Below are positions 25,246-37,135 of a stretch of DNA of 37,144 nt, one piece after another. The stretch is from positions 1 to 37,144 of the IMG/VR virus record IMGVR_UViG_3300037189_007545; one strand, given 5' to 3'. A program made the position numbers and the translations under genes. Origin of the DNA: a virus. The notes under the pieces are model-generated. The model saw only the letters and a list, made by a program, of their open reading frames with translations. It was not told the origin of the DNA and did not search any database. Each line of letters begins with the position of its first letter. The stretch's first letter is position 1.

Positions 25246-26748
25246 CTAAAGCCAAAAAACGCCCACAGTGTCATATCCTTCGCTTACTCTTACGTCTCCA
25301 GTTGTGTGACTATCTGCTTCTTTTGGATAAGTAAAGTCAACAAACTTGTTAGATGGGCGTAAATCTTTCTTAACTCCTTCACCAGCAGCAGGAGGTGTCA
25401 TGCGTTCAGCGGCGTAATGCGCCAGTGCAAATGCAGCTACGTCATCAGATAAGTGAGCATTCCATCTACCAGGATTGTAAACTTCCTCGACAGTTGTGCC
25501 CTTATGCGCGTCAAATGCAGGGCTATTACGGGCAAGTCTGTACTTTCCTCGCTCTACTGCAGTGATGTAATTAGTTAGCATTTCAGTTCTTGCTTTACCT
25601 GACATAACAAACTTAATTACTCGTTCATCCACAAGGTCATGCACAACGTTACCGATACCCGTAGCATCGTGGGCTGCCATGGCTTGATACTCGCTAACTA
25701 CACGATTAAAAGCCTCAATCATTTCTGGCCACGGTCGCCTGTTAAATCTGCGGTAATACACAAGAGTTCTAGGTTTAAGGTCTGTTCGGTAAATAGCAAT
25801 AACAGTTTTGTCTTGTTCTTTTGCCCAGTCAGCCCCTGCAGCATAAGTACCTAACGGCTCAGGTCTAGCAAAAATCCATTCATCATCATTACCTGCGTGT
25901 CGCTCGTCAACAATTTCTAGATCAACAAATGTTTGATTTAACTTATCCAAGTCGAATGCTCTTGAGCCACCTGCTGGTTCGCCAAGTTCATATTCAACTC
26001 GAAACATTTCTGCTGGCACAGACATGCGCTTACGCTCAATAAAATCTGCATCCATCCAGCCATGTGGCTTTAATTGCTCTCTGTAACACCAAGTACGTAC
26101 AGGCATGCCCTTTTTCAAAGCCTCATCCATTACAGATGAAAATGTGCCTACAGGATTTTGCCAAGTAGATGAAGCAACAAGCATTTCAGATACAGGGACT
26201 CCACGAACGTTTGGCTTAGTCATAGCTTGACCCATAGCAGCGTCATAGATCTTGCGTTCCATTTCGTCAATCTCATCAAGCAATGTCATTTGAGGGTGAG
26301 GGCCACGAACTGTCTTTTGTGATGCCGGAAGGGGTCTAATCCAGTTTCCACCAGAAAAAGTAATCTGAGTTTTAATCATGCTTGAAATAGCATGTCTTGG
26401 AGCGTGCTTGTATTGAGTTAAAGATTCTACGTGTTCATGAATGTTTTGAGATTGAGCCATAGAGCCACCAAGTAGTGTGACGTTGATTTCTAATAAAGCC
26501 GCCTTAGTAAGAGCAAGCAAAGCAAGCATGTATGATTTTCCTGTACCGCGCGAGCCATACCAAAGAACCCAGTTAAATTCATTTCCAAAGTAGGCTTCAG
26601 AAAATGCATCAAATGGTGCAATGTGATCAGGGCATACTTGAACGCGGGGAATTTCTACACCCCACAATGCTTTAACTGTCCACCACAATTCATCAGGTGT
26701 AGTGGGTGGTCGCCCCAAACTAAATACTGGTGCCGCTTCAATAGTCAC
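25246..26748 (-). CDS. terL: Terminase large subunit
   Basis: The protein has about 500 residues. The ATPase shows Walker A GSRGTGKS (65-72 in this numbering), Walker B MTLLDEID (154-161), and a motif ASSTWQNP near 196. The nuclease part has the acidic residues of the RNase H-like fold: GADWAKEQDKTVIAIY, HDATGIGN and LSDDVAAFALAHYA. It packages DNA through the portal. The open frame reaches a GTG at 26772, but that lies inside the tRNA-Asn gene, so I place the start at the GTG at 26748 (VTIEAAPVFSLGRPP). Neither has a Shine-Dalgarno sequence; only 17 bases separate the tRNA from this GTG, so the mRNA may be leaderless after tRNA processing. No small subunit is recognised nearby. Confidence 0.9.
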   Translation of the reverse strand: MTIEAAPVFSLGRPPTTPDELWWTVKALWGVEIPRVQVCPDHIAPFDAFSEAYFGNEFNWVLWYGSRGTGKSYMLALLALTKAALLEINVTLLGGSMAQSQNIHEHVESLTQYKHAPRHAISSMIKTQITFSGGNWIRPLPASQKTVRGPHPQMTLLDEIDEMERKIYDAAMGQAMTKPNVRGVPVSEMLVASSTWQNPVGTFSSVMDEALKKGMPVRTWCYREQLKPHGWMDADFIERKRMSVPAEMFRVEYELGEPAGGSRAFDLDKLNQTFVDLEIVDERHAGNDDEWIFARPEPLGTYAAGADWAKEQDKTVIAIYRTDLKPRTLVYYRRFNRRPWPEMIEAFNRVVSEYQAMAAHDATGIGNVVHDLVDERVIKFVMSGKARTEMLTNYITAVERGKYRLARNSPAFDAHKGTTVEEVYNPGRWNAHLSDDVAAFALAHYAAERMTPPAAGEGVKKDLRPSNKFVDFTYPKEADSHTTGDVRVSEGYDTVGVFWL

Positions 26749-26765
26749 AAAAAACAGTATAGTTG

Positions 26766-26838
26766 CTCCCACTACTGGATTTGAACCAATAACCCCAGAG
26801 TTAACAGCTCTGTGCTCTGCCGATTGAGCTAAGCGGGA
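26766..26838 (-). tRNA. tRNA-Asn (anticodon GTT)
   Basis: A complete 73-nt cloverleaf on the minus strand. The acceptor stem is TCCCGCT/AGTGGGA (one G-U pair); the D arm is GCTC-AATCGGCA-GAGC; the anticodon arm is CAGAG-CTGTTAA-CTCTG with anticodon GTT; the variable loop is GGGTT; the T arm is ATTGG-TTCAAAT-CCAGT. The discriminator base is G, as normal for tRNA-Asn. CCA is not encoded. It lies immediately before and, on the longest reading, overlaps the terminase gene. Phage tRNAs often supplement host decoding. Confidence 0.95.
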
Positions 26839-26944: not shown

Positions 26945-27024
26945 TGGAGCAGCAGAGAGTTGAACTCTGGTCCTAGACACTACCTTCGTGAGGTTTTAAT
27001 GTCTAGTCGAAACCGTCCTGCCCC
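26945..27024 (-). ncRNA. Mini tmRNA-like RNA (tRNA-like domain only)
   Basis: The 80-nt minus-strand sequence folds like the tRNA-like domain of tmRNA. The acceptor stem is GGGGCAG/CTGCTCC with a G3-U70 wobble pair, the main alanine identity element, and discriminator A. There is a stemless D region GACGGTTTCGA, as in actinobacterial tmRNA; a helix 2 CTAGACA/TGTCTAG; then GAC and a T arm CAGAG-TTCAACT-CTCTG. Encoded 3' bases are ACC then T. In normal tmRNA several hundred bases, including the tag reading frame and pseudoknots, sit inside helix 2. Here only 20 bases do, with a small ACCT/AGGT hairpin. It does not fold as an ordinary tRNA: no D stem and no 7-base anticodon loop. Resemblance to mycobacterial ssrA ends is from memory. 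Confidence 0.75.
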
Positions 27025-27069: not shown

Positions 27070-27249
27070 TTAATCGTCACTATCTCTTAAAGGAAGAGTT
27101 AATAGCCACACAACTAATCCACCAACAATGATGTACCCAGTAATCAGCTTGGCTGATCCTGTCAATGTTGCATACGCTATTAGTAAGCCAACAAAGGTAT
27201 AGGTTTCTCCTGTGATTTCACGTAGGTATTTCTTTATCCACTTAATCAT
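27070..27249 (-). CDS. Small two-helix membrane protein (59 aa)
   Basis: This small protein starts MIKWIKKYLREITGETYTFV, with a strong GGAGG five bases before an ATG that overlaps the upstream stop as ATGA. Two hydrophobic segments, about 18-31 (TFVGLLIAYATLTG) and 36-52 (ITGYIIVGGLVVWLLTL), are flanked by a basic N-terminus and an acidic end LRDSDD. Coupling to the secreted protein before it suggests the two work together at the membrane. It could be a holin-like or accessory membrane protein; no family is recognised. Confidence 0.8.
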   Translation of the reverse strand: MIKWIKKYLREITGETYTFVGLLIAYATLTGSAKLITGYIIVGGLVVWLLTLPLRDSDD

Positions 27250-34775: not shown

Positions 34776-34937
34776 TCATCCTGTTTGATCATCAGAAATT
34801 TTCCAATCGTCTACCATGCCACCGCAAGGTCCACACATAAAAGTAGTTTCTTCTGGTCCTTGACCACGAACGGTTACATTATTCCAATCACAACCATCCG
34901 TGTGACAAGTGATTTCATACCAAACTAATTTATCCAT
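34776..34937 (-). CDS. Tiny zinc-ribbon-like protein (53 aa)
   Basis: This minus-strand frame starts [20 protein letters not shown] at the ATG at 34937, sharing one base with the collagen-like gene stop (TAATG). Cysteines at 11, 16, 35 and 38 (C-x4-C ... M-C-G-P-C-G-G-M) make a compact zinc-ribbon-like site. The end is VDDWKISDDQTG. It fills the gap between two fibre genes. Small zinc proteins of this kind are frequent in phages; role unknown. Confidence 0.7.
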   Translation of the reverse strand: MDKLVWYEITCHTDGCDWNNVTVRGQGPEETTFMCGPCGGMVDDWKISDDQTG

Positions 34938-37135
34938 TATTGAGTCGCTATCCATGAGAAGGGTACCGCTGCAGCACCATTATTTCCATTATTTCCATAT
35001 ACCGTAAAGGTTGTTGCGCCAATGTTTCCTACAAAAATGTGGGTGTTTGTTGTTGATGAATAAGTATTTGAACGAATACTTACTACAACGCTTGACGGTG
35101 TTGTACCAAGACCGTGAGTAACAGTTTGGTTAGAACCCGATGTTGTAGTTCCTTGCCCACCAATAACAGTCCTAATTGTTAAACCAGAAGAATTATATGT
35201 TGCATACGTAGCACTATTGGCACTACTGGCACTTCCAGCACTAGTGGCAAAACCATTTAAATTTCCATTAAATGTTCCTGCCGTTACACTTCCTGTATCT
35301 GATAATTGAAAAATAACAGCATTGTAAGCACTATTAACAACTTCAAGTGTACCAGCGTTGGTTGTTCTAATGTATTTACTTGGATTAGTAGCACCAGCCG
35401 TTGTATTAGTTAATGTTAGAAATCCAGCATATCCAGTCCCTCCATAATCATTAGATGAAGTAATGTTTACTTGACTAGAGCCAGTGCCGTTTACGTTTAA
35501 AGTACTAGCCGTTACGGTTCCAGTAAATGTTGGATTAGCAGTGGGTGCTATGCCAGTTACCACACCTGTCAAGCCATTTACTGATGTAACTCCACCAGCG
35601 GCTCCAGTAGGACCCGTGGGACCTGTGACTGTTGACGCAGCACCCGTTGGACCTGTAGGACCGGTAGGGCCTGTGACTGTTGAAGCTGCTCCAGTTGGTC
35701 CAGTAGGTCCAGTAACTGTTGATGCTGCTCCAGTTGGACCAGTTGGGCCTGTTACTGTTGAGGCCGCTCCCGTAGGGCCTGTAGGACCCGTAACCGTACT
35801 GGCAGCTCCTGTAGGTCCAGTAGGACCCGTAGGACCGGTAGATCCTACGTTGCCAGCACTGCTTATTGTCCATGCTGCAAAAGTTCCTGATCCACCAATG
35901 GCATCTACAGTCATCACCATAGAAGTTCCTGTTACGGTAACAATGCCTTCCATGTAGTTTGCAGGCGTTGTTGTATTTGCTGCCCTTACTCTCATTCCAG
36001 TTACAAAAGCGCTATTTGCTGTAATCGTAAATGTTCTAGAAACTGAATTAGCAATAGTTAAAGAAGTTGATGAAGTTACACCTGAATATCCAGAACCGGT
36101 TGCTCCTGTAGGGCCTGTGACTGTTGAAGCTGCTCCTGTCGGCCCCGTTGGACCGGTAACAGTTGAGGCTGCGCCAGTTGGGCCTGTAGCTCCTGTAGGT
36201 CCAGCTACAGTTGATACTGCACCCGTAGGTCCCGTTGCTCCAATTGGGGATGATCCAATTTCAACCCAATATGTTCCGTCATACACATAAGTCTTGCCGT
36301 TGTCAGAGTTATACCACATACTTCCCGTTGTAGGAGATGCTGGTGGGGTAGCACTAGTAACAGATGTAAGCCCTGTAGGCCCAGTCGGTCCCGTTACTGT
36401 TGAAGATGCACCCGTCGGACCCGTCGGACCTGTTACGGTTGATGCAGCGCCTGTTGCTCCAGTTGCTCCAGTTGGACCTGTTGCTCCAGTAGGTCCAGTA
36501 ACTGTTGATGCTAATCCAGTTGCTCCAGTAGGTCCTGTAGGACCTATGTTTCCTGCTGCGCTTATTGTCCAGGCAGCAAAAGTACCAGACCCACCTGTTG
36601 CATCTGAAGTCATTGTCATTGTCGTGCCAGAAACTGTAACAATGCCTTCCATATAATTTGCTGGAGTAGTTGTGTTTGCTGCCCTAACTCGTTGACCTGT
36701 TGTAAATGCACTACCAGCAGTTATAGTAAAAACTTTTGATCCGGTTCCAATTAATAAAGAAGTTGTAGATGTTACCCCAAAATATCCAGCACCAGTTGGA
36801 CCTGTTACGGTTGATGCAGCGCCTGTTGGACCCGTAGGTCCTGTAACCGTACTGGCTGCGCCAGTTGGGCCCGTAGGTCCCGTAACCGTTGAGGCTGCGC
36901 CAGTTGGGCCTGTTGGACCTGTTGGACCTATTACTGTACTTGCTGCACCCGTAGGTCCAGTAACACCTTGAATTCCTTGTGGACCCGTAGGTCCCGTTGG
37001 TCCAGTGGCACCAGTCGGTCCAAGTTGAGTGTACATAACTTGAGTGGCAGTAACAATCATCGAAGCAACTGCTGGAGATGCAGGTGAAGTAGTTGCTGTT
37101 TGTGCTTCTAAAGTATTGGCCGCATCATTGCTCAT
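34937..37135 (-). CDS. Collagen-like tail fibre protein
   Basis: This fibre protein has 732 residues. Most of it is Gly-x-Thr/Pro collagen-like triplets, built from the unit [13 protein letters not shown] repeated many times (four main blocks). Two copies of a globular insert of about 80 residues occur near 115-195 and 345-425, sharing [14 protein letters not shown] and [12 protein letters not shown] small module [20 protein letters not shown] then GTYWVEIG sits near 270-305. The C-terminal 220 residues are a beta-rich tip ([20 protein letters not shown] ... [17 protein letters not shown] ... FSWIATQ). Collagen-like phage proteins form trimeric fibres. The ATG lies nine bases from the right edge, so its ribosome binding site is outside the window. 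Confidence 0.85.
35590..37040. repeat. Collagen-type tandem triplet repeats in the fibre gene
   Basis: Degenerate DNA repeats encode [12 protein letters not shown] units, interrupted by two copies of a globular insert at about 35850-36100 and 36540-36790. Codon choice varies among units (for example GGTCCT, GGACCC, GGCCCC), so the repeats are old or under selection against identity. Long open frames on the plus strand here (35484-35957, 36294-36656) are mirror images of the repeats, not genes. Confidence 0.8.

Follow-up and report, generated by a model that had tools for sequence, protein, structure and literature searches.

The 37,144 bases analysed here (hereafter the window), a tailed-phage IMG/VR record, carry a gene for an 80-nt RNA that comprises the complete tRNA-like domain (TLD) of tmRNA, the RNA with which bacteria free stalled ribosomes, and from which the tag-coding part is absent. 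This TLD-only mini-tmRNA lies at 26945-27024, exactly where the initial annotation had placed a tmRNA-like RNA devoid of its mRNA-like part, and is encoded on the minus strand. From sequence comparison, we interpret it with moderate confidence as an alanylatable TLD that would bind SmpB, compete with host tmRNA and be made mostly together with late genes.

The assignment to tmRNA was checked with the covariance-model search that had been proposed for it. Against the Rfam tmRNA model (RF00023) the RNA scores 62.0 bits (cut-off 47; E = 4.8e-22), in a match that spans model positions 1-374 end to end with about 294 positions, including the tag-coding region, deleted; the pseudoknots PK1-PK4 are missing, as is the mRNA-like domain with its resume codon, tag frame and stop. 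The RNA runs from G1 at 27024 to the discriminator A at 26945, after which the genome continues with CCT, so that the final A of the CCA end must be added. Its 7-bp acceptor is formed by GGGGCAG (27018-27024, with G3 at 27022) and CUGCUCC (26946-26952, with U70 at 26948), which creates the G3-U70 pair. The D region (27007-27017), GGACGGTTTCGAC / GGACGGUUUCGAC, has no stem and contains the tmRNA-type D loop GGUUUCGA. Helix 2 pairs CUAGACAUU (26998-27006) with AGUGUCUAG (26973-26981), both strands covarying, with double compensatory changes at eight of nine pairs, and GGAC is found between it and the T arm (CAGAG-UUCAACU-CUCUG, 26953-26969), which is delineated by the Rfam match, the fold and covariation. 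Every element listed in the initial annotation, namely the acceptor with G3-U70, the discriminator A, the stemless D region, the CTAGACA/TGTCTAG helix and the T arm with TTCAACT, is present. Its count of 20 bases enclosed by helix 2 also holds for the 7-bp core, but these bases are structured: UU/AG stacks on the core and so extends helix 2 to 9 bp, beyond which come a bulge of AAA and a small hairpin. The A-rich segment AAAA (26994-26997) has A as the family majority in these columns, and a pair is possible between its last A and U43 in the capping hairpin ACCU-CACGA-AGGU (26982-26994), which replaces the pseudoknots and the tag frame. The predicted fold of the whole RNA has an energy of -30.5 kcal/mol (z = -3.6). 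The RNA does not have the D stem and anticodon arm of a canonical tRNA: the D stem is absent from the fold, and ARAGORN, which called only the neighbouring tRNA-Asn in the window, missed the mini-tmRNA; annotation pipelines that rely on ARAGORN overlook such genes.

Related sequences provide the evidence that this structure is maintained. In an alignment of 21 sequences built without fitting to the structure, pairing holds in 98.4% of cells and both partners have changed at 17 of the 24 pairs, with a covariation score of 0.71 compared with 0.18 after shuffling and at most 0.14 after sliding. The corresponding values for 80 distinct sequences, aligned by fitting to the model, are 0.70, 0.14 and at most 0.11. 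Covariation extends over helix 2, the acceptor, the T stem and the hairpin capping helix 2, where the window has U-A at pair 34-40 and relatives of its subfamily have G-C, A-U or C-G. By contrast, G3-U70, the alanine-identity pair, is found in all 80 distinct aligned sequences, whereas acceptor pairs 4-6 next to it each occur as four or five pair types. On these comparative grounds, we judge that the mini-tmRNA is under strong purifying selection. The same cannot be said of a coding function. The initial annotation had suggested a micro-tagging RNA and pointed to the frame ATT AAA ACC TCA CGA AGG TAG, which does exist in the window; across 117 sequences, however, neither the frame nor its stop is conserved. 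No frame has an in-frame stop in more than 62 of the 117, and an Ala codon followed by a stop occurs in 40 sequences compared with 34.7 expected after shuffling. A micro-tag or conserved loop stop was rejected on these counts.

The wider family was collected from IMG/VR with sequence patterns. The first, in which parts of the D loop and the T arm were fixed and the acceptor was unconstrained, returned at least 120 loci, and a simple script found a perfect 7-bp acceptor in 115 of 120 among the matches listed; since the pattern left the acceptor free, the mini-tmRNA is not a chance match. At least 120 distinct family sequences were collected and confirmed with a covariance model, R1, built from 21 length-matched sequences, and later searches added more. 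Members score 45-96 bits with R1, full-length tmRNAs 25-29 bits, and ordinary tRNAs and host full-length tmRNAs below 30; the window copy, itself one of the 21 seeds, scores 90.8 bits (E = 1.1e-20). A second IMG/VR search, which imposed U70 and left the D loop and G3 free, yielded at least 91 distinct sequences. Among the matches listed, all 91 place G3 opposite U70 in a perfect acceptor, 47 carry the GGTTTCGAC D loop, and most others differ slightly from it and end in TCGAC or TCGAT. We estimate about 290 IMG/VR contigs for the GGTTTCGAC form alone, by comparing one length class that was searched exhaustively (32 contigs) with its share of the sample of at least 120 loci (13/119). The examination of related phages envisaged in the initial annotation has thus turned up the same short element, with compensatory changes in helix 2.

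Cellular genomes tell a different story. Over 257 Gb, only five of 49 pattern matches are true members, and most of the 49 were rejected as chance pattern matches. Three of the five adjoin genes that match phage families, all five genomes also carry their own full tmRNA, and the TLD of the latter differs from the mini-tmRNA in those genomes where the tmRNA ends were extracted. Because true cellular members are rare, lie beside phage-like genes in three of five cases and differ from the host TLD where the two were compared, we regard the mini-tmRNA as a virus gene. Unannotated copies are present in the cultured phages Pontimonas phage phiPsal1 (MG835450, 5569-5647) and Streptomyces phages pSt2308 (PV588686, 33356-33433), LuckySocke (OR725497, 17977-18054), BRock (NC_048650) and Shaeky (MT701595, 42932-43010), and another in phage GiJojo (PP725410, 17025-17102), where a predicted protein gene overlaps it.

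A number of further sequences came to light during these searches. Candidates in Microbacterium phages Dismas and Armstrong, Gordonia phages GodonK and GMA2, Synechococcus phages S-CAM1 and S-CRM01, Salinibacter phage SRUTV-1 and Bacillus phage FADO score 20-34 bits with R1 and were not accepted. Those of Dismas (locus L197, 3939-4027) and Armstrong (L312, 1438-1527) are unannotated tRNA-like RNAs of about 90 nt with G3-U70 and discriminator A, located directly before annotated tRNAs and scoring 28-34 bits; they are possibly a more divergent TLD-like RNA. The alphaproteobacterial genome of Microvirga lenta carries an 87-nt TLD-like sequence twice, on two scaffolds (L122, 2190-2276; L130, 6794-6880), with a tmRNA D loop, a CCA end and an R1 score of 32.8 bits. 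Streptomyces phage Riptide (L176, PV654398) encodes a full-length-type tmRNA of 269 nt (92.9 bits; 94862-95130 of the record) and a second, divergent TLD-only copy at L176 2477-2553 with the D loop GGTTAGATA, which is perhaps decaying. In Streptomyces phage Alone3 (L314, OR725492), the mini-tmRNA at 487-563 has decayed, its T stem, helix 2 and D loop all being broken, and its position matches that of the intact copy in LuckySocke. The 136-kb contig IMGVR_UViG_3300027749_000047 (L041, L066, L336, L344), which contains two terminase genes and two different mini-tmRNAs, is two joined phages or a misassembly. At two loci (L056, L102), an array of 26-28 tRNA genes in about 12 kb adjoins a mini-tmRNA.

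In the window, the mini-tmRNA sits among genes for terminase, portal, major head protein and tail, most of them encoded on the minus strand. The portal protein most closely resembles its counterparts in Arthrobacter phages, and the tRNA-Asn those in Streptomyces and Rhodococcus phages; these similarities make an actinobacterial host likely. Downstream on the same strand lies the tRNA-Asn (GUU) at 26765-26838 (called by ARAGORN; Rfam 63.5 bits), and the next protein gene downstream is the terminase large subunit (ORF 25246-26772, minus; PHROG terminase, E = 1.5e-15), whose true start is probably inside the ORF, 3' of the tRNA. On the other side, a putative small membrane-protein ORF of 58 aa (27073-27249, minus), its ATG preceded by aggaggatcaa, ends 48 nt before the mini-tmRNA. 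Scans for promoters and terminators around the mini-tmRNA gave nothing above shuffles. Elsewhere in the window, 34937-37135 (minus) encodes a protein of collagen-like Gly-X-Y repeats that is probably a tail fibre.

Comparison across lineages separates the RNA from its surroundings. Among the window's terminase relatives, the mini-tmRNA lies 191-961 nt upstream of the terminase match and is 85-93% identical to the window copy, whereas the 80-nt flanks on both sides show 44-57% identity against a shuffled baseline of 44-51%. In this lineage the neighbouring tRNA may be Asn, Trp or missing while the mini-tmRNA stays, and at 101 of 131 loci with a mini-tmRNA there is no other tRNA gene, which led us to reject a passenger of tRNA clusters. 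In other lineages it is found between the prohead protease and major capsid genes, as in phiPsal1: each of the 32 major-capsid matches lies downstream of it in the same orientation, 31 at a distance below 300 nt (33-299 nt), and all 27 prohead protease matches are upstream. Further copies lie near replication or early genes, or among the clustered tRNA genes of Streptomyces phages. The placement in several genomic contexts, with maintenance in each, suggests, as far as comparative data can indicate, that the RNA as such has a function. Its distribution is nonetheless uneven; only the closest TerL relatives carry it, one close relative (L339) and the more distant ones do not, and it is present in nine of the best 80 capsid relatives, some of the others being too short to tell. 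Given this patchy presence and the decayed copy in Alone3, the mini-tmRNA is dispensable.

What might such an RNA do? Host tRNA enzymes would process it out of the phage transcript, and once completed with CCA it would receive alanine from the host AlaRS and associate with the host's SmpB and EF-Tu, thereby displacing host tmRNA from SmpB and from stalled ribosomes. Having no resume codon or tag frame, it would reduce host tagging and proteolysis of incomplete, notably late phage, proteins. The determinants of SmpB binding and of alanylation are present in the RNA. Published work supports several of these steps: an isolated TLD binds SmpB, can be alanylated and gains protection from EF-Tu (PMC3989591), a TLD in the A site takes over the stalled peptide (PMC8012679), and TLD and SmpB support alanyl transfer in vitro (PMC3989591, PMC8012679). 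No SmpB gene was found in 48 sampled phage records and no encoded peptidyl-tRNA hydrolase in 39; a phage-encoded partner of either kind was therefore rejected, and the mini-tmRNA would act with host factors. Among the roles put forward in the initial annotation, a competitor of host trans-translation appears the best supported, by analogy with the TLD-only RNA of phage DS6A, which is reported to inhibit tmRNA in E. coli (PMC4131195, PMC11915505); the alanine donor also suggested there is a possible role. The benefit to the phage is our inference.

As G3-U70 is invariant, the charged form presumably matters, and the mini-tmRNA probably goes beyond soaking up SmpB, entering the A site in its charged state and accepting the nascent peptide. 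A passive decoy, which would only titrate SmpB (or AlaRS or EF-Tu) without peptidyl transfer, is in keeping with the reported inhibition of tmRNA by a similar TLD-only molecule, chargeable or not, perhaps through titration of SmpB (PMC4131195), as well as with the tmRNA-type D loop, the SmpB site, having been retained though the search left it free. An uncharged decoy should, however, sometimes lose G3-U70, which is constant over 80 distinct sequences while neighbouring pairs drift, and since DS6A-type inhibition is reportedly independent of charging, simple titration alone leaves this pair unexplained. We consider the passive form unlikely, and active capture of stalled peptides would appear more likely than a pure decoy because alanine identity is never lost. 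The invariant alanine identity and the missing tag frame, together with the alanyl transfer seen in vitro with TLD and SmpB (PMC3989591, PMC8012679), would also suit a tag-less rescue, in which the Ala-charged RNA accepts the stalled peptide, the ribosome recycles or the peptidyl-TLD drops off, and the phage gains ribosomes with no tag being added. This reading is rather improbable: without a resume codon, release needs another factor, none of the 39 phage records has a peptidyl-tRNA hydrolase, and the DS6A-type RNA is reported as an inhibitor.

The remaining alternatives do not involve trans-translation. Location on the same strand 33-299 nt upstream of the capsid gene at 31 loci, and ahead of TerL in the lineage of the window, is what one would expect of RNA-processing punctuation, where RNase P and 3' enzymes cut the tRNA-like fold and so detach the message for capsid or terminase from the genes before it. 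Any tRNA would serve that end, though, which leaves G3-U70, the tmRNA-type D loop and the capped helix 2 unexplained, and many copies are near early genes or in tRNA clusters; we regard such a role as improbable. It is far less probable still that the RNA is functionless, either a piece of host ssrA left at an integration site, the refutation foreseen in the initial annotation, or a decayed phage tmRNA. The gene ssrA commonly serves as an integration site (PMC11915505), Riptide has both a full tmRNA and a divergent TLD-only copy, and the Alone3 copy is decayed. Against this, both halves of the TLD are present and covarying, and the element has been kept with compensatory changes while its flanks diverged to random, as befits a maintained gene rather than an attachment-site remnant. 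Moreover, a tyrosine integrase, the class of integrase searched for, is absent from the window and from 34 of 39 records, and the five cellular carriers have their own full tmRNA, with a different TLD where the ends were extracted.

Taking the competitor reading, preferably with active capture, to the whole family, we tentatively envision a widespread phage counter-system in which alanylated TLD-only RNAs, made together with capsid and terminase genes, would enter stalled ribosomes with host SmpB, take the peptide untagged and so disarm or re-route rescue late in infection; this broader picture is possible, and we hold it less firmly than the competitor reading itself. Hundreds of copies under strong selection suggest that interference with trans-translation is a common phage strategy, and the family makes the old question of the role of tmRNA during infection testable, as the invariant alanine identity sets a charged, ribosome-entering mechanism apart from a passive decoy.

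The idea is less new than the initial annotation had assumed, as the mycobacteriophage DS6A RNA (tmRNA Website tmID 11587; PMC4131195, PMC11915505) is prior art. Judged by its published description, it is likewise a phage gene consisting of the TLD only and without a tag frame; compared in this way, by description and not by sequence, it is a single reported instance, whereas here we have a family of many. Searches of openly accessible journal articles revealed no account of TLD-only RNAs as a broader phage family. Full-length tmRNA (ssrA, RF00023), including that of Bxz1-type mycobacteriophages and Streptomyces phages, shares the G3-U70 acceptor, the stemless D loop, helix 2 and the T arm, but has about 270-370 nt rather than 80 and possesses the resume codon, tag frame, stop and pseudoknots that the mini-tmRNA lacks; the two are separated by their R1 scores (25-29 versus 45-96 bits). 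Two-piece tmRNA in marine phages, Melnitz and pelagiphages (PMC9004378), is also a tmRNA borne by aquatic phages, yet it is permuted and keeps the tag-encoding piece, whereas the mini-tmRNA is unpermuted and the tag is absent. The CDS-less tmRNAs of Mallomonadaceae plastids (about 65 bp) and some mitochondria (PMC11915505) are similarly reduced to the tRNA-like part; they are, however, the organelle's own tmRNA, arrived at via genome reduction, while the mini-tmRNA is an extra phage gene in hosts with a full tmRNA. What was known before is thus one phage RNA and the reduced plastid and mitochondrial tmRNAs, and what is new is the breadth of the family, its capped-helix-2 consensus, the invariant G3-U70, the placement before capsid or terminase genes and the unannotated copies in cultured phages.
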